This document shows, one piece after another, positions 6,541-55,114 of a stretch of DNA of 64,000 nt; positions within the stretch are counted from its first letter, which is position 1; each line of letters begins with the position of its first letter. Origin of the DNA: an uncultured Jannaschia sp. (lineage in GTDB: Bacteria; Pseudomonadota; Alphaproteobacteria; Rhodobacterales; Rhodobacteraceae); assembly GCF_947494055.1 (NCBI RefSeq), contig NZ_CANLTR010000017.1:1-64000 (forward strand), written 5' to 3'. The position numbers and the translations under genes were made by a program. Below the pieces are notes generated by a model. It searched no databases. It saw nothing but the letters and a program-made list of their open reading frames with translations, and was not told the origin of the DNA.

Positions 6541-7038
6541 TTGCGCGCCATCCGTAGACTGGCGGACAGGCTAATCGGCCTGTCCGCCCTCATCGGCGGG
6601 GTCTGCCTTCTGGGCCTGACCGGGGTGATCCTCGTGGACGTCGTCGGGCGCGCCATGGGTGCCCCGCTCTTCGGCAGTCAGGACCTAATCACAATGGGCA
6701 TGGCGCTGCTAGTCTTCGGAGGCATGGCGCTCTGCGACCGCCAGGGCGGGCATATCGCGGTCGACCTGCTCGAGCCGCGCCTCCCGCCCGCTCTGAACCG
6801 GGCGATCGACATCGGCTCGGCGCTGCTGGGCGCAGCCATCTTCCTGCTGATCGCATATACGGTCCACGAATCCGCCAAGCTCAGCCAGATGCTCAACATG
6901 TCGACGAACCTGCTGCGCCTGCCACGCGCCTGGGTCCAGTGGGGGCTGGCGGGCCTGTCGGTCGTCGCGGCCCTGGGAATGCTGCTGCGTGCCGTCGAGC
7001 TAACCGTGACGGGACGCGACGTGAGGAAGGCGCCGTGA
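6541..7038 (+). CDS. dctQ: TRAP transporter small permease (DctQ)
   Basis: A 165-residue protein with four predicted membrane helices (ALIGGVCLLGLTGVILVDVV; LITMGMALLVFGGMALCD; IDIGSALLGAAIFLLIAYTV; WGLAGLSVVAALGMLL), the size and topology of DctQ. The start codon TTG follows the dctP stop with no gap and translation is probably coupled. Its stop is overlapped by the GTG of dctM (GTGA). Confidence 0.85.
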   Translation: MRAIRRLADRLIGLSALIGGVCLLGLTGVILVDVVGRAMGAPLFGSQDLITMGMALLVFGGMALCDRQGGHIAVDLLEPRLPPALNRAIDIGSALLGAAIFLLIAYTVHESAKLSQMLNMSTNLLRLPRAWVQWGLAGLSVVAALGMLLRAVELTVTGRDVRKAP

Positions 7039-8339
7039 GCCTTGGCGCGATCGGCGTCTCGGGCATCGTGGCGTTGCTTGTGCTGCTCCTGATACGCATC
7101 CCCGTCGCCTTCGCCATGTTTCTCGTCGGCTTCCTCGGCCTCTGGATCGTCGACGGCTGGAACACCGCGACGGGGCTGCTGGCCTCGGAGACCTTCACGC
7201 TCGCCTCCATGCCCGAGCTCGTCGTCATTCCCCTCTTCATCCTGATGGGCAACGTCGCCTCCGCAACCGGCATGTCCCGACAGCTCTACGACGCGGCCTA
7301 TGCCATGATCGGCCACGTCCGCGGCGGGCTGGCCTCGGCCACGATCATCGGGTGCGGTGGCTTCGCGGCGCTGTCGGGCTCCTCGGTGGCGTCGGCCCTG
7401 ACGATGGGCAAGGTCTCGCTGCAGGAAATGGAGCGCTTCGACTACGATCCGCGCCTGTCCACCGGCTCCGTCGCGGCGGGCGGAACGCTGGGCATCCTGA
7501 TCCCCCCGTCGACCGGCTTCGTCATCTACGCCATTCTCACCGAGCAGAGCATCGGCCGGCTGTTCATGGCCGGCATCCTGCCGGGGCTCCTGCTCCTGGC
7601 GATGTTCGTCCTCACGGTGCTGCTGATCTGTACGCTTCGACCGGCCTACGGTCCGCGCGGCCCGCGCACCACGTGGCACGAGAAGCGGCGCGCGCTCGTC
7701 GGTGCGCTCCCCATCCTCGCGCTCGTCGTCGTCACCATCGGCGGCATCTACCGCGGCTTCTTCTCGCCAGAGGAGGCCGCGGGCGTGGGGGCTGGGCTCG
7801 CCGTCCTCTACGGCGTCGCCACGCGGCGTCTCACCCTTGCGGAGCTGCGGGACGCCGTGCGCGACAGCGTCGTGACCACCGCGACCGTGATGCTGATCCT
7901 GATCGCGGCACATCTGCTCAACCCGTTCCTCGCGCTGACCCATGTCACGGAATCGGTCGGCAACCTGCTCGCCGCCCTCGACCTGAACGTGCTGGGCACC
8001 CTGCTGTTCATCCTGGCCGTCTACCTGGTGCTCGGCTGTTTTCTGGAGGGGTTCGCGATGCTGGTGCTGACCCTGCCGATCTTCTTTCCCGTCGTGCTGG
8101 AACTCGGGATCGATCCGATCTGGTTCGGCGTGCTGGTCGTCCTGACACTCGAAATGGGGCTGATCTCGCCACCGGTGGGGATCAACGTCTTCATCGTGAA
8201 GTCCGTCGCCGCGGCCGTCCCGCTTGGACAGATCTTCCGCGGGGTCCTGCCGTTCTGGCTGGCGATGATCCTGGCATTGGCGGTGCTGATCGCCTTCCCG
8301 CAGATCTCCCTGTTCCTGCCCAACACCATGTTCGACTGA
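7035..8339 (+). CDS. dctM: TRAP transporter large permease (DctM)
   Basis: A 434-residue, 12-helix integral membrane protein with DctM hallmarks: PVAFAMFLVGFLGLWIVDGW, SGSSVASALTMGKVSLQEM, GGTLGILIPPSTGFVIYAIL and LGCFLEGFAMLVLTLPIFFP. It performs sodium-coupled import of the ligand delivered by DctP. The GTG start at 7035 overlaps the dctQ stop in GTGA, the usual coupling. It is the last gene of the ligM-dctPQM operon. Confidence 0.88.
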   Translation: MSLGAIGVSGIVALLVLLLIRIPVAFAMFLVGFLGLWIVDGWNTATGLLASETFTLASMPELVVIPLFILMGNVASATGMSRQLYDAAYAMIGHVRGGLASATIIGCGGFAALSGSSVASALTMGKVSLQEMERFDYDPRLSTGSVAAGGTLGILIPPSTGFVIYAILTEQSIGRLFMAGILPGLLLLAMFVLTVLLICTLRPAYGPRGPRTTWHEKRRALVGALPILALVVVTIGGIYRGFFSPEEAAGVGAGLAVLYGVATRRLTLAELRDAVRDSVVTTATVMLILIAAHLLNPFLALTHVTESVGNLLAALDLNVLGTLLFILAVYLVLGCFLEGFAMLVLTLPIFFPVVLELGIDPIWFGVLVVLTLEMGLISPPVGINVFIVKSVAAAVPLGQIFRGVLPFWLAMILALAVLIAFPQISLFLPNTMFD

Positions 8340-8340
8340 C

Positions 8341-8357
8341 GGCCCCGCAGCGGGGCC
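8341..8357 (+). terminator. Possible terminator after dctM
   Basis: GGCCCCG-cag-CGGGGCC begins two bases after the dctM stop codon. It is a strong 7-bp stem with a 3-nt loop but lacks a T-tract. Confidence 0.5.
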
Positions 8358-8387
8358 GGAGCCGTATCCACTGCGCCAAGCCGTCCC

Positions 8388-8648
8388 TCAGCGATCCGTC
8401 CGCAATGCGGTCGCCGCCTTGATCACCACCTGCGCGGCCATGATCCGCCCGGCGATCTGCGTATACTGCGTGTCGGTGCCGAGGTGGCGCGCACCGTCCT
8501 CGTCGGCCTTCGAACGAATGCGGCGGTCGATTTCGTCGGAGCGTCCCGTGCCGCCGGCGTTGCCAGTCTCCGCGCCTGCGTCGGTCGAAGGGATTGCCGA
8601 GGGGAATCGTCCCGATCGACCTCCCGCCCAGTCATTCGGCGCCGAGGA
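8388..8648 (-). other. Open coding-like stretch continuing in frame after the nuclease stop
   Basis: After the TGA of the nuclease (8649-8651) the same frame stays open for 86 codons to a second TGA at 8388-8390. Its last 50 residues have strongly coding-like GC3 usage and read as a plausible helical segment (DEIDRRIRSKADEDGARH, then LGTDTQYTQIAGRIMAAQVV). There is no ATG, GTG or TTG in frame before the ATG within IAGRIMAAQ. It may be a small gene with a non-canonical start, a lost C-terminal extension of the nuclease, or an unlikely chance frame. I do not recognise a family. Confidence 0.3.
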
Positions 8649-41387: not shown

Positions 41388-41405
41388 GGTTCACAGCTGT
41401 GAACC
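41388..41405. other. parS-type partition site, copy 2, overlapping the repC stop codon
   Basis: GGTTCACAGCTGTGAACC is a perfect 18-bp palindrome whose core fits GTTNNNNGCNNNNAAC. The repC stop (TGA on the minus strand, bases 41391-41393) and the last codons for Gly-Ser-Gln-Leu lie inside it. RepB is the expected binder. Confidence 0.8.
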
Positions 41406-42608
41406 TGACAGATATTCCGAGTTCGAGCTTCTTCGCATTAGAGAAAGGATATCCGAGGATTTACGCCGAACCTGCGAGGTCAGTGCAGTGAAATATGCAT
41501 TCGGAGATGCGATATGTGCAAAGCGTTGAAGGACGATGGCGACCACGACCGAAGCGCGTTGGAGTCCGATTGCTTTTATTGCTCGGTCCCAAGCATGCAT
41601 CGATATGCCTGTCATTGGTCGGATGATTGAAGCTAGTCGCGTTACTTCGTTCCAATTGCGGATCGGGGTTGGACTATACGTCTGCAGTTCGGAGCAGCTC
41701 GCGAGAAGTGACTGTAGCGTCATATCGCAGTCCGGTCGGCTTCTGGCGGAAGGTATATTCTCCGACCTGATTACTGCTTGAACATGGCGATCGTCATGAT
41801 CCGATCGGTTCAGGCTGGACGGATCGCCTATCTTATATTCTTCTTCTTTGGATTCCTGTTTGTGCTGCTCATTCTGGTCGTCGGAGGTGCTCGGGTCCGT
41901 ACGGTGCAGGGCGTCGTGGATATGGGCAAGCGACGCGTTCAGGCTGTCGATGATCTCTTGTAGTTGGGTCGAGGATAGACGACGGCGGATGTGCTGCGCG
42001 GCAGTGCGGGCTTGGTTTGCCAGTCGGTCCCAGACGTTGCGGTCGGAAGCGTTGGTTCGGCCGTAGCTCGCGAGGTTGGCTAGGTCGCGGCACATGAGGC
42101 TTGCCGTGTGGCGGGCTTGATTGGCCGCTTCGGTTTCCGCGCGGGCGGCACCGGCGGCGGTTTCGATCTCGTCGAAACGGCGGGTGAGGGGGGTGAGGTC
42201 GAGGCCGAAGACGTCGGGGCCGTCGGCGTTGCGTCGGACGTAGCGCTTGCCGTTGGGGCTGTCGCGGCGAAGGATCAGGCCGGCCTCGACCAGATGCGCG
42301 ACGTGGCGGCGCATGGTGGAGCAGGGCATGCCGTTCAGACGCTCGCAGATCGCGGCGTTCGAGGCGTGGACGATGTGGCCGGCAGGGCTTTCGCCCAGGC
42401 GGTCGCCCTTGTGGAAGCTTAGGAGGGCCTGCAGGACGGTCAGGGTCCGGTCGGACAGGCCTAGTCCCTTGCGGGCGGCGCGGAGCGCGTGGAGCACGGC
42501 CCATTTGTCGACCGGCGCGGATTTGGCGGACGTGTCGGTGATGTCCCGACGGCGCAGCATCGCGGCGTCGACCGCCCGTCGGAACGGGGTCACGGGGTTG
42601 TAGCCCAT
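41391..42608 (-). CDS. repC: Plasmid replication initiator RepC
   Basis: A 405-residue RepC. The N-terminal domain has KWAVLHALRAARKGLGLSDR and LTVLQALLSFHKGD, then HASNAAICERLNGMPCSTMR, a winged-helix DNA-binding part with TMRRHVAHLVEAGLILRRDS. A variable hydrophilic middle precedes a C-terminal helix bundle (WNEVTRLASIIRPMTGISMH). RepC initiates replication, and in this family the origin lies within repC itself. It is third in the repABC order on the minus strand, separated from repB by the 176-bp antisense-RNA region. Its AT content rises toward the 3' half (about 41700-41900). Confidence 0.93.
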   Translation of the reverse strand: MGYNPVTPFRRAVDAAMLRRRDITDTSAKSAPVDKWAVLHALRAARKGLGLSDRTLTVLQALLSFHKGDRLGESPAGHIVHASNAAICERLNGMPCSTMRRHVAHLVEAGLILRRDSPNGKRYVRRNADGPDVFGLDLTPLTRRFDEIETAAGAARAETEAANQARHTASLMCRDLANLASYGRTNASDRNVWDRLANQARTAAQHIRRRLSSTQLQEIIDSLNASLAHIHDALHRTDPSTSDDQNEQHKQESKEEEYKIGDPSSLNRSDHDDRHVQAVIRSENIPSARSRPDCDMTLQSLLASCSELQTYSPTPIRNWNEVTRLASIIRPMTGISMHAWDRAIKAIGLQRASVVVAIVLQRFAHIASPNAYFTALTSQVRRKSSDILSLMRRSSNSEYLSGSQL

Positions 42609-42784
42609 ATCGATATGTCACGAAGACAAAACTTCTTCGGGCCGCGAATCACGAGGGACTTGCGGAAGGGGAACGGGATCGCTACCTTGAAAGTGCGAAA
42701 GACAAGGTTGGGTCTCGTGGAGCTTCGGCTTTGCGGGGCCCGATTTCGTTTCGGCTCTGGCGTGCCTCCTTGGTTGGGTTCGGT
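42609..42784 (+). ncRNA. repB-repC intergenic region, expected to encode the antisense incompatibility RNA
   Basis: In repABC plasmids the repB-repC gap encodes a small antisense RNA, transcribed opposite to rep genes, that limits RepC. This 176-bp gap has the right size and place. Structures visible are a GAAG-acaaaa-CTTC hairpin near the repC start and the GC-rich segment CTTCGGCTTTGCGGGGCCCG. I cannot fix the promoter or exact ends. Confidence 0.5.
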
Positions 42785-43798
42785 TCAGTCTTCGGCGCGC
42801 CGCGTCCAGCGGGCGTGAAGGTCGGTAAGGATCGTCTGCGCCTCGGCTTCGAGCCAGTCCGCGAAGGGACCGTTCTCCACGTCGAGCCGCAGCGCGGTGT
42901 CGGAACGTTGCAGGGTCGCCGCGCGTTTCCCCTGTAGTTTCAATGACTTGATCTGTTTCTTCGGCGTCCGGACGGGGCGCTTTGCCGGCCGTGTCACGGC
43001 GCGGAAGACCGCCTCGAAGGCCGCGCCGGACGGGTCGGGCGCGTCGGCGACCGCGCCGGAAAGGGCAGGGGCCACGGCGATGTCGGTCTGCACCCGCTCG
43101 GCCAGGTCGATGAGCCCGGCCCGGTCCGCGCCGGTCTCGGCGACCGCGCGGCCGAGCGCGTCCCAGCGGGGCCGGCCGATCCCGTGGGCCGGGCCGATCG
43201 CCTGCGCGAGATCGGGGCCGACCATCTCGAGGATGGTCAGCGCCATCGAGATCGCGGATTTCGCGACGGTCAGCACCTCGGCCACCTCGGTCTGGGTGCC
43301 GAAGCCCGAGCGGACGAGCTCCCGTGCGAACAAGGCCTTCTCGATGAAGGACAGGTCGCGCCGGGCCATGTTCTCGGAGACCTGCGCACGCACGGCGGCG
43401 TCGTCGTCGAGGCTGGCCACGAGGGCGCGGACCTTCGTCACCTTGTCGGAGGAGCGCACCGCCTCCAGCCGGCGGCGGCCGTAGACAAGAAGGTAGCGGT
43501 CCGCGTCGCTGGGGTGACGGCGCACCAGGATCGGGACGACCTGTCCGTTGGCCTCGATCGCGTCGCGCAGATCGGCGACGTCCTCGGGCTCCAGCCGGTC
43601 GGCGATGCGGTCGTCGACGATGGCGTAGGGGTCGAGATCCCAGACCCGGTGGGCGTCCACCGCGTCGCGCGCCGAGCGCAGCGCACGGTTGGAGGCGGCC
43701 ATCGCCCCCGGCGCCGCGGCCTCGGGGGCGGGCAGGGGGCTACCGGCGGCGGCGAGGCCGTCGAGCATCGACATCCGGCGCTTCCTGCTGTCGCTCAT
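42785..43798 (-). CDS. repB: Plasmid partition protein RepB (ParB family)
   Basis: A 337-residue ParB-type protein. Near residue 50 is the ParB N-domain (LDPYAIVDDRIADRLEPEDV, then GQVVPILVRRHPSDADRYLL with the VYGRRRLEAVR box). A helix-turn-helix follows (GTQTEVAEVLTVAKSAISMA), then RepB-type C-domain with KSLKLQGKRAATLQRSDTAL. It binds parS and works with RepA. Its ATG overlaps the repA stop in ATGA. Confidence 0.93.
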   Translation of the reverse strand: MSDSRKRRMSMLDGLAAAGSPLPAPEAAAPGAMAASNRALRSARDAVDAHRVWDLDPYAIVDDRIADRLEPEDVADLRDAIEANGQVVPILVRRHPSDADRYLLVYGRRRLEAVRSSDKVTKVRALVASLDDDAAVRAQVSENMARRDLSFIEKALFARELVRSGFGTQTEVAEVLTVAKSAISMALTILEMVGPDLAQAIGPAHGIGRPRWDALGRAVAETGADRAGLIDLAERVQTDIAVAPALSGAVADAPDPSGAAFEAVFRAVTRPAKRPVRTPKKQIKSLKLQGKRAATLQRSDTALRLDVENGPFADWLEAEAQTILTDLHARWTRRAED

Positions 43799-45003
43799 GA
43801 CCCCTTCCTCGGGTCCGGCGTCCGGCCCCAGGTCCGCTGGATGAGCTGCGCGATCTCGTCGTTGACGGCGTTCAGGCTCTCCATCGCGCGGTCGTAGGTG
43901 GACCGGGTGAAGGCGCTGCGCTCCACCTCGTAGAGCGTCTGCTTGGTGAGGCCGGCATCGGAGATGGCGGTGGATTTCAGCATCGTCGCGTTCAGCACCT
44001 TCTCGCCGTACATCGTGCGCAGGAAGGCGACGATGCGGTTTTGCGGCGCGTCCGTCGGCTCGTAGCGGGTGAGCAGGTAGCGGATCCAGTCGTGCGACAT
44101 GTCCGCCCCGCTCTCGGCGATGACGTCCATCAGGTCGGCGGTCATGCGCAGGAATTGCGACATCGACATCACGTCGAGCATCTCGGGGTGGATCGTCACC
44201 AGCACGCCGGTCGCCGCCGAGAGGGCCGACATGGTGAGGAAGCCCAGCTGCGGCGGGCAGTCGATCACCACCACGTCGTAATCGGCATCGACCTGCGCCA
44301 GCGCCTCGCGGACGCGGAAGAAGAACAGCCCGGCCTCGTTCCGGGCCAGCGCGCGTGGGGTGTCGTGCTCGAAATCCATCAGGTCGAGATTGCCGGGCAC
44401 GAGGTCGAGATTCGGGATGTAGGTCGGCCGGATCACGTCGCGGATCGGCAGCGGATCCTCGTAGCGGATCGCGTCGTAGAGCGTGCCGCCGTCGCGCAGG
44501 TCGAATTCGGGCTGCACCCCGTGCAGCGCGGTGAAGGAGGCCTGCGGGTCGAGGTCGATGCCGAGGACGCGGTAGCCGGTGAGCGCCAGACGCTGCGCCA
44601 GATGCGCCGAGGAGGTGGTCTTGCCGGACCCGCCCTTGAAGTTCATCACCGCGACGATCTGCAGGTGGTCGCCCTCGCGGCGGCCGGGCAGGTAGTCGCC
44701 GGGGCGGCGCGCGGTCTTCTCGAGCAGCACGCGGAGCGCCTGGACGTCGCCCGCGGAGTAGAGGCGCCGGTTGCCGGCCGTGGTCTCGGGGGAGGGGCCC
44801 TTGCCCTCGAGGTGCAGCTTGCGCAGGTAGCTGTCGTTGACGCCGAGGAGCGCGGCGGCCTCGCCGGAGGTGAAGCGGCGCATCTGCTTGGTGGCGTCGG
44901 GGGGGAACAGGCTCTCGCGCTGGTTGTGGAGCTGCGCGGCGAGCCATTCGGAATGCTGTCGGATGACCGCGTTCAGGTCGTCCTGTTGGAACGTGACGTT
45001 CAT
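43795..45003 (-). CDS. repA: Plasmid partition ATPase RepA (ParA family)
   Basis: A 402-residue ParA-type ATPase. An N-terminal MerR-like helix-turn-helix (FTSGEAAALLGVNDSYLRKL) precedes the deviant Walker A motif MNFKGGSGKTTSSAHLAQ (about residues 120-137), Walker B-like VVVIDCPPQLGFLTMSA, and the motif GIDLDPQASFT. It partitions the replicon with RepB and represses its own operon. The ATG at 45003 has GGAGAGG five bases upstream. Confidence 0.93.
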   Translation of the reverse strand: MNVTFQQDDLNAVIRQHSEWLAAQLHNQRESLFPPDATKQMRRFTSGEAAALLGVNDSYLRKLHLEGKGPSPETTAGNRRLYSAGDVQALRVLLEKTARRPGDYLPGRREGDHLQIVAVMNFKGGSGKTTSSAHLAQRLALTGYRVLGIDLDPQASFTALHGVQPEFDLRDGGTLYDAIRYEDPLPIRDVIRPTYIPNLDLVPGNLDLMDFEHDTPRALARNEAGLFFFRVREALAQVDADYDVVVIDCPPQLGFLTMSALSAATGVLVTIHPEMLDVMSMSQFLRMTADLMDVIAESGADMSHDWIRYLLTRYEPTDAPQNRIVAFLRTMYGEKVLNATMLKSTAISDAGLTKQTLYEVERSAFTRSTYDRAMESLNAVNDEIAQLIQRTWGRTPDPRKGS

Positions 45004-45177: not shown

Positions 45178-45582
45178 TCAGACGCCGGGGTCGAGCACGG
45201 GCGCGCCCGTCGGTTCGTGGTGGCGCAGATTGCGCGTGACCACCGTCAGCCCGTGGGTGAGCGCCGTGGCGGCGATCATCAGGTCGGCGGAGGCGTGGCC
45301 CAGGCGCGCGGAGAGGTCGCCCCAGAGCGCGGCCTCGTCCGGGCCGAAGGGGAGGATGCGGCTGTCGTAGTCGCGGCGCAGGGTGGCGAACCACGCGTCG
45401 AGTTCGGCGGCGAAGACCGTGTCGCGCGGGCGCTGCAGGGCGATGCCGCGGGCGATCTCGCCGATGGTGACGGCGCTGAGCCAGAGGTCGCGGTCGGCCA
45501 CGCCGTCGAACCAGCGCGCGACCCTCGGGTTGCGGTCGGGGCGGCGCAGGAGCGAGAGCACGTCGGTGTCGAGGAGATACAC
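45178..45582 (-). CDS. vapC: VapC-type PIN-domain toxin
   Basis: A 134-residue PIN nuclease. Conserved acidic residues appear in YLLDTDVLSLLRRPDR (first Asp), TIGEIARGIALQRP (Glu) and HASADLMIAATALTHGLTVV (Asp), with a final VTRNLRHHE. It should cleave RNA when free of antitoxin. The GTG start at 45582 abuts the antitoxin stop codon (45583-45585) without a gap. Confidence 0.88.
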   Translation of the reverse strand: MYLLDTDVLSLLRRPDRNPRVARWFDGVADRDLWLSAVTIGEIARGIALQRPRDTVFAAELDAWFATLRRDYDSRILPFGPDEAALWGDLSARLGHASADLMIAATALTHGLTVVTRNLRHHEPTGAPVLDPGV

Positions 45583-48841: not shown

Positions 48842-49300
48842 CTACCGCTCGACCTCCGCCTTCCGCGTCGCGAGGACGTCGCGCAGGTCGAGCACCGACC
48901 GTTCGTCCATCGAGACGTAGACCAGCGCCATGTTGGTGCGCGCGCGGACCATCTCGCCGGGAAACGGGAGATAGGACAATTCGCGCGAGCCGAAGGACGG
49001 GGAGGCGGTGCCTACCTGCCACTCGGTCTTCAGCTCCACGTCCACGAGCTTGAGCGCCTTCGCCCCCGCCGTGCCGGGCCGCTCGAAGGGCACGCCGGCG
49101 AGCCTGAGATAGCTGGTCTTGTCCTTCGCCTGCAGGAAGCCGTCGACGAATTGCGCGGCGAGGACCTGCAGGTCGGCGGCCGCGTCCTCGGCCTGCACGT
49201 GGCTGTGCAGGTGGTCGGCGGCGCCGGGCGGGTTGTGGTCGTGCGGGTGGTGGGCGTGGCCGTGCGGCCCGTGGGGGTGCGGCGCGTGATCGTGCGGCAT
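48842..49300 (-). CDS. Histidine-rich protein, putative metal-handling partner of the guanidine hydrolase
   Basis: A 152-residue cytoplasmic protein. The first 34 residues hold 13 histidines (MPHDHAPHPHGPHGHAHHPH, then HLHSH at 30-34), a tail resembling the metal stores of HypB or UreE proteins. The rest is a compact alpha/beta domain (LQVLAAQFVDGFLQAKDKTS; KLVDVELKTEWQVGTA; RARTNMALVYVSMDERSVLD) that I do not recognise. There is no Walker motif or Cys4 zinc site, so it is neither HypB nor HypA. It starts 4 nt after the hydrolase stop, so translation is probably coupled. Ni(II) storage or delivery is inferred from the tail and context; a regulator or a second enzyme subunit remain possible. 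Confidence 0.7.
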   Translation of the reverse strand: MPHDHAPHPHGPHGHAHHPHDHNPPGAADHLHSHVQAEDAAADLQVLAAQFVDGFLQAKDKTSYLRLAGVPFERPGTAGAKALKLVDVELKTEWQVGTASPSFGSRELSYLPFPGEMVRARTNMALVYVSMDERSVLDLRDVLATRKAEVER

Positions 49301-49304
49301 GGTC

Positions 49305-50579
49305 TCACCCGATCCCGTGGGGTGCGGGGTTCGACCACCGCTTGCCCTCGAACTCGCCGTGCGGGATGCGCACCGGCTTGTCGATATGCCGGCGATGCGC
49401 GCCGAGCTTGCCGCTGGCGACGAGCGAGCCCAGCACGTCGACGATCACCCGCGTGCCCATCAGCGCGGTGATGTCCGAGGTGTCGTAGGGCGGGCTGACC
49501 TCGACAAGCTCCATGCCGCAGATACCCTCGGCCGCGACCTTGGAGGCCAGCGCCAGCGCCTCGCGCGGGAGGAACCCGCCCGGCTCGGGCCAGCCGGTGC
49601 CGGGGACGAAGCCGCAATCGATGGAGTCGATGTCGAAGGAGAGGTAGACCATGTCGACCCCGTCCCAAGCCATTTCCAGCGCCATCTCGGCGGTGCGGTC
49701 GATGCCCATCGCCTCCATGTCGGCCATGGTGATGATGTTCGTCTCCCGCTCGCGGGCGGTCTTCACCGCGTCGCGCGGGACCTGCCAGCCGCCGATGCCG
49801 ACCTGCACGAGGTTCCTGGGCGAGACGTTGGGCAGGTTCGTGGCGTGAAACCACGGGGTCGTGTGCATCCGCTCGTCGAGATCCTTCTCCTGGATGTCGG
49901 CGTGGCGATCGAAATGGACGATGCCGATCTTCTTGGACGTGCATTCGGCGATGCCGCGCAGGCAGGGAAAGCCGATCGAATGGTCGCCGCCGATCATGAT
50001 CGGCAGCGAGCCGGAGGAGAAGACGTGGCTGACCGCGCGGCTGATCTGGTCGAAGCTCTTCTCGATGTTGGCGGGGATGGTGAAGACGTCGCCCGCGTCG
50101 CAGAGCGTCATCTGCTCGCGCAGGTCGACGCCGATCTCGTAGTTGTAGGGCGTGTAGAGCGCGCTGATCTTGCGCAGGCCCTGCGGGCCGAACCGCGTGC
50201 CGGCGCGGTAGGTCGTGCCGCCGTCGAAGGGGATGCCCAGCACCGTGGCGTCGTAATGCGCGACCTCGGTCACGTCTTCGGCGTAGGGGGCCTTCAGGAA
50301 CGTGTTGATCCCCGCGTAATGGGGCAGCTCGCCGCGCGCGAAGGTGGGAATGTCGCGGTCCTCGATGCTGTCGGCCCCGGTCAGGCCCATGCGGAGCGCC
50401 CAGCGGCGTTCCTCGGCCCAGCGGGCGCCGGGGATCTCGCCCTCCTTCTGCATCGCCTTCCAGCCGCCGAGCCTGGTCAGGTCGGGGTGATGCGGGCGGC
50501 GGTCCCGGCCGGCATGGCGGCGGGCGAGGGCGCGGGGATGGCGCGCGCGGACCTCGGCGCGGTGAAGGTCAGAGAACAT
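49305..50579 (-). CDS. gdmH: Arginase-family hydrolase, probable guanidine hydrolase (GdmH-like)
   Basis: A 424-residue ureohydrolase, larger than agmatinases (about 300-320). All six metal ligands are present: His200 in IMIGGDHSIGF, Asp224, His226 and Asp228 in VHFDRHADIQEKD, Asp316 and Asp318 in LSFDIDSIDCG. The segment DERMHTTPWFHATNLPN is unlike agmatinase and recalls the guanidine hydrolase branch. The reaction is guanidine to urea plus ammonia, known to require nickel in characterised members. The guanidine-I riboswitch and importer upstream are the strongest evidence for substrate. Start ATG 50579 has AGGGAGA upstream. Its first 45 residues are Arg/His-rich. A plain agmatinase is the alternative. 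Confidence 0.78.
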   Translation of the reverse strand: MFSDLHRAEVRARHPRALARRHAGRDRRPHHPDLTRLGGWKAMQKEGEIPGARWAEERRWALRMGLTGADSIEDRDIPTFARGELPHYAGINTFLKAPYAEDVTEVAHYDATVLGIPFDGGTTYRAGTRFGPQGLRKISALYTPYNYEIGVDLREQMTLCDAGDVFTIPANIEKSFDQISRAVSHVFSSGSLPIMIGGDHSIGFPCLRGIAECTSKKIGIVHFDRHADIQEKDLDERMHTTPWFHATNLPNVSPRNLVQVGIGGWQVPRDAVKTARERETNIITMADMEAMGIDRTAEMALEMAWDGVDMVYLSFDIDSIDCGFVPGTGWPEPGGFLPREALALASKVAAEGICGMELVEVSPPYDTSDITALMGTRVIVDVLGSLVASGKLGAHRRHIDKPVRIPHGEFEGKRWSNPAPHGIG

Positions 50580-50675
50580 CGCTGTCTCCCTCTTGGCTGC
50601 CCCGGTCGGGGCGCGGTCGATCCGGGCCTTGGCAAACCTCGCGCGCGGGGCCCGGCGGCGCGCGCGAGGGTCGGG

Positions 50676-51442
50676 TCATCCCGCCGCGAGCGTCGGGTAG
50701 CGGTCGAGGATGTGCTGGAACGGCACGCCGCGGTCGCGGGCGTCGAAATCGTAGGTGACGGTCGCCCCGTACGCCTCGGGGAAGTCCGGGTCCCAGCGGA
50801 CCTTGTCGAAGACGAGGACGCGGTCGCCGAGCTTGAAGCCCTCGGCGAGGTCGTGGGTGACCATGAACACGGTCATCGCCGTCTCCGCACGCAGCTCGGT
50901 CAGGAAGTCGTGCATCGCCAGCCGCGTGCCGGGGTCGAGCGCGCCGAACGGCTCGTCGAGGAGCAGGACGCGCGGCCGGGCCGTCAGCGCCTGGCCGATG
51001 GCGAGGCGCTGCTGCATGCGCCCGACAGCGTGGCGGGATACTGCGCCGCGACATGCGCGAGGCCGATCCGGGCGAGGGTCGCGTCGGCCCGTTCGCGGGC
51101 GGCGCGGAGCCTGCCGCCGAAGAAGCGCCCGAGCCCGGTGGCGAAGCTCTCGGCGGCGACGACGTTGTCGCGGACGGTCATGTGCGGGAACACCGAGTAG
51201 CGCTGGAACACCACGCCCCGCTCGCGCCCCGGCTCCCGCGCGGGCGGGCCGCCGTCGATGCGGATCTCGCCGCGGCTGGGCGTCTCGTCGGCGAGCAGCA
51301 GGCGCAGGAAGGTGGACTTGCCGCAGCCGGACGCGCCGACGATCGAGACGAACGCGCCCTCGGCCACGTCGAGATTGACCCGCTCGATGATCGAGCGGCC
51401 GCCGTAGCTCTGCCAGACGTCGGTGACGGTCACGAAGCTCAA
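50676..51442 (-). pseudogene. NitT/TauT-type ABC transporter ATPase with a frameshift in its signature motif
   Basis: The first frame (TTG start at 51442) gives GASGCGKSTFLRLLLADETP (Walker A) and FQRYSVFPHMTV, up to YPATLSGA near 51019. The second frame, from an ATG at 51017, gives MQQRLAIGQALTARPRVLLL, then DEPFGALDPGTR (Walker B) and VFMVTHDLAEG. Between them the expected Leu-Ser-Gly-Gly-Met reads CTGTCGGGCGCATG instead of CTGTCGGGCGGCATG, a missing G. Rejoined, it is a normal ATPase of about 255 residues. It could be a real mutation, a sequencing slip or recoding; without repair the importer is non-functional. The TTG overlaps the permease stop (TTGA). Confidence 0.8.
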
Positions 51443-52251
51443 AGGCCCGCGCCGAGCCAGGGGAAGGCGCGCCGGGACAGCGCCCGCAGCGCGCCGTCGA
51501 TCAGGAAGGCCAGGAGCGTGATCCAGATGACGTAGGTCAGGATCACGTCCATCGCGAGATAGCGGCGGACGAGGAAGATGCGGTAGCCCAGCCCGCTGTC
51601 GGCCGCGACCGCCTCCGCCGCGATGAGGAACAGCCAGGCCGCGCCGAGCGAGAGGCGGATCGCCGCGATCAGGCGCGGCAGGATCTGCGGGATCACGACG
51701 CGCAGGGCGATGACCGCGCTCGAGGCGCCGAGCGTCTGCGCCTTGACGATCTCCTCGTGCGGGATGTCGAGCGTGCGCTGCGCGATGTCGCGGATCAGGA
51801 ACGGCGCGATGCCGACGACGATCAGCACGACCTTCGAGGTCTCGCCCAGGCCGAAGACGATGAAGAGGATCGGCAGGAGCGCCAGCGGCGGAACCATCGA
51901 CAGCACCGCCACGAAGCCCGAGAACGCGCGCCGGGCGTAGGGCAGCATCCCGATCGGAACGCCGGTCGCCAGCGCGAGCACGGCGGCGATCGCGACGCCG
52001 AGGCCGAGCCGCCGCAAGCTCGCCCAGGTGTCCGACCAGAGCAGGATCTCGCCCGAGCGGCGGTCCCCCTCGGTGAAGAGGCGCAACGCCGTGGTGCCGA
52101 TCGTGGCGGGCGCGGGCAGGAGCTTGTCGGCGGGGTTCGCGGCGAGCCGGATGTCGGAGGCGATCGCATAGGCCACGAGGACCGCCACGAAGGGCAGGGC
52201 GGCCAGCAGGATCGCCACAGGCCGCGCGGGCCGTCTGTTGATCATCCGCAT
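51439..52251 (-). CDS. NitT/TauT-type ABC transporter permease (guanidine operon)
   Basis: A 270-residue permease with six predicted helices. The SsuC/TauC-type loop reads VPPLALLPILFIVFGLGETS and IPHEEIVKAQTLGASSAVIA, followed by IPQILPRLIAAIRLSLGAAW. It forms the channel of the importer between the binding-protein and ATPase genes. ATG 52251 is preceded by GAGG, 34 bp after the binding-protein stop. Guanidine import is inferred from the riboswitch and hydrolase. Confidence 0.82.
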   Translation of the reverse strand: MRMINRRPARPVAILLAALPFVAVLVAYAIASDIRLAANPADKLLPAPATIGTTALRLFTEGDRRSGEILLWSDTWASLRRLGLGVAIAAVLALATGVPIGMLPYARRAFSGFVAVLSMVPPLALLPILFIVFGLGETSKVVLIVVGIAPFLIRDIAQRTLDIPHEEIVKAQTLGASSAVIALRVVIPQILPRLIAAIRLSLGAAWLFLIAAEAVAADSGLGYRIFLVRRYLAMDVILTYVIWITLLAFLIDGALRALSRRAFPWLGAGL

Positions 52252-52285
52252 CGCCAAAGCCTCGCGGTCGCAGCCGGATCGCGAC

Positions 52286-53353
52286 CTAGAGCGCGCCGTC
52301 GGCGGCCATTTGCATGTAGGTCGGATCGAAGCGGAACATGACGTTCCCCTCGTCGCCGGTGACGGTGCCGCCGGGATATTCGATGCCGACAAAATCGGCC
52401 GAAGGCGCGTCGACGCCGAGGATGCCCTTGTCGAACAGGAACTCGGCCACGTTCACCATCGTCTCGGGCAGATCGGCGCTCTCGGCCTGTGCGACCGCGG
52501 CGGCGGGGTCGTAGAACATCTCCGTCGCCTCGAGCTGGGCCCTGTAGCCTTCGAGGTCGGTGCCCGACGCCTCGGCCATCGCCGTCAGCGCCGCCTCGTC
52601 GCCCTCGGCCATCAGGCCCATCACCTCGTACCACGCGCCGACCCGCGCCCGGCCGAAATCGGGATTGTCCGCGAGCGTCTGCGTGTTGACCACCATCAGG
52701 GCGAGGATCTCGCCCGGGATCGCCGCGCTGTCGAACAGGTTGGTGGCGTCAGGGTACGTGGCCAGGATCTCGGAGACGAGCGGGTTCCAGGTGACGATTG
52801 TGCCGACGTCCTCGGTCGCGAAGGCGGCGATCATGTCGGCATCCGAGGTGTTGACCACGCCGTCGAGGTCACGCTCCGCGAGGCCCGCGCTGTCGAGCGC
52901 GCGCGCCAGAAGGTAATGCGACACCGACAGTTCCACGAGGTTGACGGAGGTGCCGGCGAGGTCCGCGAGCGAGGCGGCGCCCTTGGAGATCACCGCGTCG
53001 TTGCCATCGGAATAATCCCCGATGATGAGCGCGGTCGTGTCCACGCCGCCGCCCGCGGGGATCGACAGCGTGTCCATGTTGGTGGCCGAGACGCCGTCGA
53101 AGGCGCCGGCCGTGTACTGGTTGATGGATTCGACGTAGTCGTTGAACTGCACGATCTCGACGTCGATGCCGTATTTCTCCGACCATTTGTCCATGATCCC
53201 CGACTCGTCGAGATAGCCCCAGGGCATCCAGCCGACATAGATCGACCACGCGACCCGGAAGTCGGTCTTCTCCTGCGCGGCGGCGGGGGCGGCGCCCGTG
53301 GCCAGCAGGGCCATCGCGGCGGCTGTCGTGAACCGGAACAGGGCTTTGGTCAT
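52286..53353 (-). CDS. NitT/TauT-type ABC transporter substrate-binding protein, probable guanidine receptor
   Basis: A 355-residue periplasmic protein. A signal peptide ends ATGAAPAAAQ. The mature domain starts DFRVAWSIYVGWMPWGYLDE, the ABC nitrate/taurine-binding fold, with FNDYVESINQYTAGAFDGVS and VNTSDADMIAAFATEDVGTI downstream. It is the first gene after the guanidine-I riboswitch, 95 nt from the end of the aptamer, with GGGGGAA before the ATG. Aromatic and acidic residues (Trp-rich start) suit a small cation. Confidence 0.82.
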   Translation of the reverse strand: MTKALFRFTTAAAMALLATGAAPAAAQEKTDFRVAWSIYVGWMPWGYLDESGIMDKWSEKYGIDVEIVQFNDYVESINQYTAGAFDGVSATNMDTLSIPAGGGVDTTALIIGDYSDGNDAVISKGAASLADLAGTSVNLVELSVSHYLLARALDSAGLAERDLDGVVNTSDADMIAAFATEDVGTIVTWNPLVSEILATYPDATNLFDSAAIPGEILALMVVNTQTLADNPDFGRARVGAWYEVMGLMAEGDEAALTAMAEASGTDLEGYRAQLEATEMFYDPAAAVAQAESADLPETMVNVAEFLFDKGILGVDAPSADFVGIEYPGGTVTGDEGNVMFRFDPTYMQMAADGAL

Positions 53354-53448
53354 GGTGCTTCCCCCAACGTCCCGCCGGACTCGGATTGATCAGGAGCGAC
53401 CCGCTGGCGGAACGAGGACAAGGGCGCGGGGCGAACCTGCGCAGTGTG

Positions 53449-53546
53449 CCTCCCGGGATTTTGGCCCGCCGTGTGCCCGTGCGGATTTTGCCGCGCGGGT
53501 GGCATTTCTCGGACCAGACCCGCGACACGCGGCGGAACCCTAAACG
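53449..53546 (-). ncRNA. Guanidine-I (ykkC) riboswitch
   Basis: On the minus strand the conserved core elements occur in order and spacing: TTTAGGGTTCCG, then GGTCTGGTCCGAGAAATGCC about 11 nt later, then a short hairpin region, and ACACGGCGGGCCAAAATCCC followed by GGGAGG. The TAGGGTTCCG / CTGGTCCGAGA pair and the final AAAA-CCCGGGAGG stretch are hallmarks of this aptamer. The next gene begins 95 nt downstream. No terminator with a U-run is visible between aptamer and start codon, so the expression platform may act on translation or through Rho. Guanidine should switch the operon on. Confidence 0.88.
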
Positions 53547-53818
53547 CCCTGCCATGCCAGAAGGGCTCGGGGGCACGCCGCTCGCAATCCCCGCCGGTGC
53601 CGCGCGGCGCGCCTCGCCCGCGACTGCCGCTTATCTGGACGCCGGGCGAACCCGCTGCGGAAGAAACGGGCGGTTCCGGAAGGGCGCGGCCGGGAAACGG
53701 CACGTCAGACGCGGGTTCGGGCCCGGAACTCCGTTCGACATCCGCCGCCCGATCGTGCACGGACGGGCACGGTCCCGTCCCGCGGGGCCGGTGGATCTGA
53801 GGACGGCCGCAGGAGGCG
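53547..53818. other. Divergent promoter region between riboswitch and PQQ-type dehydrogenase gene
   Basis: About 270 bp upstream of the aptamer (minus strand) and of the gene at 53819 (plus strand). It must hold both promoters. No clear operator is visible. Confidence 0.4.
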
Positions 53819-55114
53819 ATGATGGATATTCTGGCACGGACGACGGCGCTGGTCGGCGGCACGATGGTCGCGCTGCGCCGTTTCGGTGCGCCGGGCACGC
53901 AGGCCGTGGGCGCGACGCCGGCGATCCCGGAGGCGAAGTCGCAGGGGATCATGACGCTGAAGATGCCGCTCGCGAAGGGCTGGGAGCCGGGCCACGTGCC
54001 GACGGCGGCGCCCGGGCTGTCGGTCAACGCCTTCGCCTCCGGGCTCGAGCATCCGCGCTGGATCGAGGTGCTGCCGAACGGCGACGTGCTCGTGGCCGAG
54101 TCCAAGGAACAGCCGGGCAAGGCGAAGACGCTGTTCGACCGCGCGGCGCAGGCGACGATGCGGCGCGCCCGCGCCATCGGCGACAGCGCCAACCGCATCA
54201 CGCTCTGGCGCGACGCGGACGGCGACGGGGTGGCGGAGATGCGGGAGGTCTTCGTCGAGGACCAGAACCAGCCCTTCGGCATGGCCCTCGTCGACGGCAC
54301 CTTCTACGTCGGCAACACCGACGGCATCGTGGCCTTCCCCTATACGGACGGGGCGACGCGGCTGGAGGGGCCGGGCCGCAAGCTCGTGGACTTCAAGCCG
54401 CACGGCCACTGGACGCGCAGCCTGATCGTCTCGCCCGACGGCACGAAGCTCCATGCCGGCGTGGGCTCGCTCACCAACATCGCCGATCAGGGGATGGAGG
54501 CGGAGGAGGGGCGCGCGGCGATCTGGGAGCTCGACCTCGCGACCGAGAAGGCGCGTATCTTCGCCTCCGGCCTGCGCAACCCGGTCGGCATGGCGTGGGA
54601 GCCGTCGACGTCCACGCTCTGGACCGTCGTGAACGAGCGCGACGGGCTGGGCGACGAGACGCCGCCCGACTACCTGACCTCGGTCGAGGACGGCGGCTTC
54701 TACGGCTGGCCCTATGCCTACTGGGACCGGATCGTCGACGATCGCGTGCCGCAGGACGCCGCCCGCGTCGCCGCCGCGATCACGCCGGATTACGCGCTCG
54801 GCGGGCATACCGCGTCGCTGGGCCTCTGCTGGATGCCGGCGGGAACGCTGCCGGGCTTCCCGGACGGCATGGTGATCGGGCAGCACGGTTCCTGGAACCG
54901 GTCGATCCTGAGCGGCTACAGGCTGATCTTCGTGCCCTTCGCGAACGGCCGGCCGGCGGGACAACCGCGCGACATCCTGTCGGGGTTCCTGTCGGACGAC
55001 GAGAAGATCGCCTATGGTCGCCCCGTCGGCGTGACGATCGGCCCGGACCGCAAGTCGCTCCTGATGGCCGACGATGTCGGGGACGTGATCTGGCGCGTGA
55101 CGGGCGCGGCCTGA
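53819..55114 (+). CDS. Glucose/sorbosone dehydrogenase-like (PQQ-type beta-propeller) protein
   Basis: A 431-residue six-bladed beta-propeller protein of the sorbosone dehydrogenase family. Diagnostic blade segments are LEHPRWIEVLPNGDVLVAES, QPFGMALVDGTFYVGNTDGI, PDGTKLHAGVGSLTNIADQG, IFASGLRNPVGMAWEPSTST and GHTASLGLCWMPAGTLPGFP, with GSWNRSILSGYRLIFVPF. Members oxidise aldoses with PQQ as cofactor, but many are uncharacterised. The short N-terminus has a Thr/Ala-rich hydrophobic stretch rather than a clear signal peptide. Confidence 0.78.
   Translation: MMDILARTTALVGGTMVALRRFGAPGTQAVGATPAIPEAKSQGIMTLKMPLAKGWEPGHVPTAAPGLSVNAFASGLEHPRWIEVLPNGDVLVAESKEQPGKAKTLFDRAAQATMRRARAIGDSANRITLWRDADGDGVAEMREVFVEDQNQPFGMALVDGTFYVGNTDGIVAFPYTDGATRLEGPGRKLVDFKPHGHWTRSLIVSPDGTKLHAGVGSLTNIADQGMEAEEGRAAIWELDLATEKARIFASGLRNPVGMAWEPSTSTLWTVVNERDGLGDETPPDYLTSVEDGGFYGWPYAYWDRIVDDRVPQDAARVAAAITPDYALGGHTASLGLCWMPAGTLPGFPDGMVIGQHGSWNRSILSGYRLIFVPFANGRPAGQPRDILSGFLSDDEKIAYGRPVGVTIGPDRKSLLMADDVGDVIWRVTGAA

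Follow-up and report, generated by a model that had tools for sequence, protein, structure and literature searches.

A riboswitch-preceded guanidine hydrolase operon with a histidine-rich candidate nickel chaperone in an uncultured Jannaschia

The operon and its guanidine hydrolase

The DNA considered here is a stretch of 64,000 nucleotides, in what follows the window, which forms part of contig 17 (NZ_CANLTR010000017.1, positions 1 to 64,000, forward strand) of an uncultured Jannaschia sp. (GCF_947494055.1). The genome measures 4.7 Mb, is scored as 100% complete, and is a GC-rich draft of 276 contigs. Read in the direction of transcription, the minus strand of the window between 48842 and 53554 has a guanidine-I riboswitch aptamer and then genes for a substrate-binding protein, a permease and an ATPase of the ATP-binding cassette (ABC) type, the last in two frames, followed by a hydrolase gene (gdmH) and a gene for a small histidine-rich protein, to which we refer as the partner:

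53448-53554, minus strand: guanidine-I riboswitch aptamer (RF00442, 82.2 bits, E 4e-13, full model 1-107)
52286-53353, minus strand: NitT/TauT-type substrate-binding protein, probably guanidine-binding (Pfam NMT1/NMT1_2; NCBIfam TIGR03427)
51439-52251, minus strand: ABC permease (PF00528, BPD_transp_1, E 1e-18)
50984-51442, minus strand: ABC ATPase, N-terminal half in the first frame (PF00005, residues 20-141, E 1.9e-20)
50676-51017, minus strand: ABC ATPase, C-terminal half in a shifted frame (PF00005 profile positions 113-136 of 137, E 0.0009, below the cut-off when taken alone)
49305-50579, minus strand: GdmH-type guanidine hydrolase, 424 residues (PF00491, Arginase, E 1e-76; the true start may lie further in)
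48842-49300, minus strand: histidine-rich GdmH partner, 152 residues, a proposed nickel chaperone (kept downstream of gdmH; AF2 models)

An earlier note on this DNA, made from the sequence alone, had claimed a guanidine-I aptamer ahead of these genes. A search with the covariance model RF00442 (cmscan) agreed, since the score of 82.2 bits lies well above the gathering score of 63, and this was the sole match above its gathering score across the window. It is established for this riboswitch class that binding of guanidine to the aptamer permits expression. Neither an intrinsic terminator nor a sigma-70 promoter pattern was found in 53300-53850, and the 121 bases that separate the aptamer from the start codon folded no better than shuffled sequences.

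For comparison we used the best 80 loci kept when named genomes were searched with a GdmH profile (the named loci), all of which are alphaproteobacterial; more distant GdmH genes fall outside the scope of this search. The aptamer was sought with a covariance model built from nine aptamers, all of them RF00442 matches near gdmH or the partner gene, so that this model is fitted to the gdmH setting. With it, the aptamer was present in 71 of the 80 named loci (one of the 71 being cut by a contig end) and in seven of eight further regions, the miss being L196. Six of the nine aptamer-negative named loci were also scanned with Rfam and gave no match (L136, L137 and L144 lay outside that scan). Region L182 had no RF00442 match either, and L183 starts almost at the binding-protein gene.

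The hydrolase has, judged by sequence, the arginase fold and an open frame, and the six intact metal ligands that the earlier note had reported are all in place (H200, D224, H226, D228, D316 and D318). Its residues T123, H239, W330 and E360 align with those of the Nitrospira inopinata guanidinase (9fek), the tryptophan lying in the loop PGTGWPEPGG; these Thr, His, Trp and Glu positions are listed for guanidine catalysis in PMC11410670. Among solved structures, the best matches were Synechocystis GdmH (7esr/7oi1, 541 bits) and 9fek (533 bits), with the next at 175 bits. Both enzymes carry the label agmatinase 2 in these entries; that they are guanidinases comes from PMC11410670. The window hydrolase remained below both NCBIfam agmatinase cut-offs (165.7 versus 174.3 and 211.6 versus 302).

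A tree of 36 rows was consistent with these scores. It contained no characterised agmatinase, and its outgroups were two paralogues from the window's own genome and two relatives that lack the tryptophan. The 28 alphaproteobacterial GdmH sequences, all from loci with a partner, formed one clade (support 100/99), which joined Synechocystis and N. inopinata (99/96) and then Rubrobacter. Both tryptophan-less relatives and both paralogues, the latter on very long branches, fell outside the guanidinase clade. The phylogenetic comparison thus places the hydrolase with the solved guanidinases, as the earlier note had expected. Judged by sub-cut-off agmatinase scores, best matches and tree placement, the window hydrolase is a GdmH-type enzyme of the arginase family and an agmatinase identity is rejected. 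By homology, it would be expected to use nickel and to hydrolyse guanidine.

Two loci outside the window deserve mention beside this enzyme. In the alphaproteobacterial genome G372 (L179, about 7028-8428), a tryptophan-less GdmH relative with the loop PGTGTP has an internal histidine-rich insertion, HHDHSHMHD, which is possibly an in-built metal loop. On plasmid pNGR234b of S. fredii NGR234 (L061, 2872-4695), an allophanate hydrolase gene lies upstream of the guanidinase operon, which suggests that both routes of guanidine degradation may adjoin.

The histidine-rich partner and its pairing with GdmH

The last gene of the operon encodes the 152-residue protein described in the earlier note, which had correctly counted 13 histidines among its first 34 residues; the frame is open, and such a count has a binomial tail of 2e-13 with a histidine background of 2.2%, a value that we chose. 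The window partner matched no family in Pfam, NCBIfam or the PDB sequences, and its body matched none in PHROGs. Across the partners, between 4 and 27 histidines precede a body of ~120 residues that has 14 invariant columns in 48 sequences. MPHD, taken as the start, occurs in 65 of 79 partners, and LHSH or a near form (MHSH/FHSH) stands just before the body in 75 of 79. In partners of the SAR116 type the histidine tract is gone and four histidines are left, with HD and LHSH kept. The partner of S. fredii is a true relative (hhalign E 1e-13).

In AlphaFold models the partner consists of one long and one short helix, beta strands and a helix at the C-terminus, and the conserved loop falls inside a low-confidence stretch. 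The histidine-rich N-terminal tail is predicted to be disordered. Entries with COMM-protein titles made up nine of the nine top fold matches with the full model and seven of nine with the body model, all of them weak (E 0.08 to 0.75) and poorly superposed, and COMM domains had no sequence match to the partner body. We treat this resemblance as no more than a lead.

Known nickel proteins were considered as possible relatives. The HypA and HypB families were absent from the Pfam and NCBIfam matches of partner relatives. Membership of the UreE family was rejected, as one of 40 full-length partners matched at E 0.094, none of 48 bodies did, and no Pfam UreE match was obtained. NF007454, a nickel/cobalt efflux transporter model, was matched by six of 40 full-length partners (best E 1.3e-5) and by none of the 48 bodies; because the match is lost once the tail is removed, this likeness reflects the composition of the histidine-rich tail. 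We attribute the other weak family matches, none of which had an E better than 0.007, to chance. The N-terminal nickel site of HypA is MHE. An analogous site could be read into the MPHD start of the partner, but other residues precede HD in L139, so such a site is not universal.

The partner proved to be tightly coupled to GdmH. In a draw of 295 genomes from the same family as the window's genome (partner matches at E <=0.001, GdmH matches at E <=1e-100), 45 had the partner and 44 had GdmH, and all 44 GdmH genomes had the partner at E about 1e-41 or better. The extra genome, G159, held only two short partner fragments. In 43 of the 44 genomes a single contig holds both genes, at most about 0.6 kb apart; in G098, a fragmented assembly, they were on different contigs. 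Among the named loci the partner gene followed gdmH in 79 of 80, and the remaining one (L145) ends inside gdmH. In 74 of these 79 the partner gene either overlapped the gdmH stop or started no more than 50 bases from it, the widest gap being 433 bases. Overlap with the end of gdmH was seen in 50 of 79, most commonly by 11 bases; the partner start was set at MPHD where present, and the overlap counts depend on this choice. Of the GdmH matches that were flagged with an internal stop, the six loci checked showed a normal gene end, and two more were flagged.

Wider samples gave the same picture, although the family, class, phylum and named-locus samples overlap and their counts are not independent. 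The class sample (385 genomes) contained GdmH in 13, the partner in 13 and both in 11. GdmH-like matches without a partner came from G372, which lacks the tryptophan and the riboswitch, and from G357, which is cut by a contig end. Partner matches without GdmH came from G418, a start-less fragment, and from G655, whose operon has either lost an internal part or been misassembled. In the phylum sample (398 genomes) GdmH was found in seven, all Alphaproteobacteria, and the partner in all seven. As for the two partner-only loci, that of G655 (L178, 8019-9035) has the riboswitch and then the start of the binding-protein gene fused into the partner body, with the rest of the importer and gdmH missing and a histidine-rich tail at the C-terminus; that of G418 (L177, 7091-7357) is a partner remnant beside genes for an ABC ATPase and an FtsX-like permease, the latter named by eye.

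The pair also persists where the rest of the operon was not found. Importer and riboswitch were not found in the SAR116 loci L135, L137, L139 and L144, nor in the similar locus L136 and in L121, and gdmH and the partner gene are still adjacent in all six. In G750, the aptamer and the gdmH-partner pair are present and no importer binding protein was found within the 15 kb examined. In the SAR116 locus L135 (9863-12732), genes for a tripartite ATP-independent periplasmic (TRAP) transporter (DctP, DctQ, DctM) lie downstream of the pair, a possible alternative uptake route.

Nickel supply and the proposed role of the partner

In cyanobacteria, HypA and HypB load nickel into GdmH. We searched the 44 GdmH genomes for HypA (PF01155) and HypB (TIGR00073), and for HypA also 20 GdmH-negative genomes, which were the first ones in the list. 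HypA was above its cut-off in 12 of the 44 and in 3 of the 20, and HypB was above its cut-off in the same 12 GdmH genomes. In these 12 the two genes adjoin each other but not gdmH, which lies on a different contig in 10 and at distances of 45 kb and about 254 kb in the other two. The whole genome of the window had no HypA match and no HypB above cut-off, and the operon itself contains neither hypA nor hypB. Loading of GdmH by HypA/HypB encoded elsewhere in the genome was rejected for the 32 of 44 genomes, that of the window included, in which both are below cut-off (one of the 32, G052, has a sub-cut-off HypA match). Sub-cut-off matches to the HypB model do occur, and they are probably UreG, because the best one in the window's genome adjoins urease alpha at about 1.2 kb. 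Urease alpha was matched in all 44 GdmH genomes (43 above cut-off) and in 15 of the 20 GdmH-negative ones (14 above cut-off). HupE/UreJ was found somewhere in 29 of the 44, and a HupE/UreJ gene directly follows the partner gene in S. fredii NGR234 and in G821 (in G821 by tblastn only).

Comparison with described systems clarifies what is familiar here and what is not. The Synechocystis sll1077 operon likewise combines a guanidine-I riboswitch, GdmH and an SsuA/TauA-type ABC importer (PMC8390497, PMC12186494), and its HypA/HypB-like proteins have been named GhaAB (PMC11271267). In cyanobacteria, guanidinase operons contain hypA and hypB together with an importer of this type (PMC8390497; for marine picocyanobacteria, PMC10119275), whereas the window's operon has no hypA or hypB and an unrelated histidine-rich protein gene follows gdmH instead. 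The comammox bacterium N. inopinata is similar in that its guanidinase is under riboswitch control, belongs to the same clade and has no HypA/HypB partner; it differs in having an APC permease in place of the ABC importer (PMC11410670). Its authors found no dedicated nickel loader and called the loading mechanism unclear (PMC11410670). Metformin hydrolase operons, where hypA and hypB precede the nickel enzyme and hupE follows it and where recombinant activity depended on HypA/HypB (PMC11399263), resemble the proposed system in having a nickel ureohydrolase with dedicated nickel helpers and a nearby hupE, and in S. fredii NGR234 gdmH is followed by the partner gene and then by HupE; they differ from the window in using HypA/HypB helpers and in having two ureohydrolases instead of one gene.

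Histidine-rich nickel chaperones include HypB with its N-terminal tail, UreE with its tail, SlyD and CooJ. The partner resembles them in carrying a histidine-rich stretch on a folded body, and is unlike them in that this body shows no relation to either the HypA or the HypB sequence compared and finds no match in Pfam, NCBIfam or the PDB sequences.

From these data, we consider it likely, though well short of certain, that the locus is a guanidine-inducible nitrogen-scavenging operon in which the partner acts as nickel chaperone for GdmH in place of HypA/HypB. Guanidine would bind the aptamer and so allow the operon to be expressed, the binding protein, permease and ATPase would take up guanidine, and a nickel-dependent GdmH would hydrolyse it to urea and ammonia, after which the urease, whose gene is present elsewhere in the genome, would process the urea. 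The tail and LHSH element of the partner would collect Ni2+, and its compact, conserved body would hand the Ni2+ to GdmH. As a speculation, the partner may work with the urease GTPase UreG, which we propose because most of these genomes are without HypB. The strongest argument for a chaperone is the strict coupling of partner and GdmH, which holds even at loci where importer and riboswitch were not found, in genomes that mostly lack the known loaders. The earlier note had suggested that the histidine-rich protein replaces HypA/HypB; comparative support for this is strong (pairing in 44/44 genomes and 79/80 loci, loaders below cut-off in 32/44), while the role itself is what we infer.

Several observations weigh against this proposal. 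Its weakest link is the partner's metal binding and contact with GdmH, both of which are predicted roles. The partner models had no significant match among PDB folds, and a profile of the partner body aligned to one HypA and one HypB sequence with hhalign probabilities of 0.1 and 0.7 percent, which led us to reject the partner as a homologue of either. No partner was found near the GdmH genes of two Rubrobacter plasmids; the N. inopinata guanidinase shows partial activity without a known chaperone (PMC11410670); and in one study metformin hydrolase was active in vitro with no chaperones present and these had no effect on it, yet a chaperone knockout did not grow on metformin (PMC11271267). Because of these three cases a chaperone is not needed universally. 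A large metal store is not essential either, since the tail of SAR116-type partners shrinks to four histidines. No relative of the S. fredii HupE was detected in the 80 named loci or in nine further regions, so that the link to a nickel permease comes from two loci. Finally, guanidine uptake in the window's genome may be impaired by the split ATPase. The absence of HupE, the ATPase split that recurs in L138 and the efflux-model matches do not bear on the core pairing of GdmH and partner.

The strict pairing and the frequent gene overlap (50/79) would also fit a partner that stays in the GdmH complex as a non-catalytic subunit or stabiliser, with a histidine tail that only buffers metal. Metformin hydrolase needs a second subunit (PMC11399263), and a conserved loop modelled at low confidence is what an interface could look like. 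Yet the partner is not arginase-like, the N. inopinata guanidinase is a homohexamer that resembles the Synechocystis enzyme and has no such subunit (PMC11410670), and the histidine-rich tails, together with the adjacent HupE gene at two loci, suggest a role in handling nickel; we hold a structural role to be unlikely. Still less probable, in our judgement, is a nickel storage or detoxification protein that is co-induced with GdmH and makes no direct contact with the enzyme. The variable tail (4 to 27 histidines) and the NF007454 matches of 6/40 full-length partners, which arise through composition only, would suit such a protein, but conservation is much higher in the body than in the tail, SAR116-type loci have a shortened tail and keep the body, and the family and class samples held no intact partner without GdmH, the three partner-only genomes being fragments or a deleted operon. 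The main substrate of the hydrolase could also be a guanidino compound other than free guanidine, such as a substituted guanidine, a possibility that the authors of work on a related guanidinase considered given its low substrate affinity (PMC11410670). For the window enzyme we think this very improbable in view of the aptamer in 71/80 loci, the common clade with solved guanidinases and the conserved Thr, His, Trp and Glu, of which all but the Trp are retained by the tryptophan-less relative L066 as well.

Returning to the partner as a nickel chaperone, a bolder version of this proposal seems to us as apt to fail as to hold. According to it, a new family of nickel metallochaperones begins with the partner, a protein whose body has no recognised fold and which is unrelated to HypA, HypB, UreE and SlyD and was gained once at the base of the alphaproteobacterial GdmH in exchange for HypA/HypB; its working metal sites would be the HD element near the N-terminus and LHSH, and the long histidine tract would be an optional reservoir. 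If true, nickel loading of ureohydrolases would have been solved at least twice. The operon type itself is already known, and none of the libraries searched has a family for the partner. It was named nowhere in the literature searched, a scope that excluded the GdmH discovery paper (Funck et al. 2022), which could mention the gene. The partner offers a small candidate for nickel supply in alphaproteobacterial guanidinases without HypA/HypB, among them the enzymes of SAR116 and of marine bacteria of the roseobacter type, and it would be the protein to try in co-expression when full GdmH activity is sought. As a rule for annotation, an alphaproteobacterial gene labelled 'hypothetical protein' beside one labelled 'agmatinase family protein', a combination met on two plasmids, probably encodes an accessory protein of a guanidinase.

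The importer and the plasmid context

The importer described in the earlier note was recovered in part. Its binding protein and permease are open frames of the stated families, and the binding protein scored 496.5 bits against TIGR03427, a 'putative urea ABC transporter substrate-binding protein' (cut-off 333.9). The ATPase is not a single intact gene, as its halves lie in different frames, with the shift located at the ABC signature; NCBIfam ABC ATPase models matched the C-terminal half below their cut-offs. Of the 80 named loci, 74 have all three importer genes upstream of gdmH, and the ATPase halves share one frame in 73 of these 74. Only in L138 is most of the C-terminal half in another frame, as in the window. 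The split could mean that the window operon is decaying or its importer dead, or else that the split is an assembly error. Decay sits poorly with the remaining genes, which are open and well conserved, and a GC-rich draft of 276 contigs can hold indel errors. We give this set of explanations, which is compatible with the proposed chaperone function, a real chance that falls somewhat short of even.

The operon was called plasmid-borne in the earlier note, and a replication cassette elsewhere in the window backs this:

41391-45003, minus strand: repABC replication/partition genes (RP-C, RepB/ParB_N and ParA-type Pfam matches)

Since RepC (41391-42608), RepB (42785-43765) and a ParA-type ATPase (43795-45003) were all identified there by Pfam, a plasmid location is supported. 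Between the repABC genes and an aminotransferase gene, the window also encodes a PIN-domain protein (45178-45582), possibly the toxin of a plasmid toxin-antitoxin pair.

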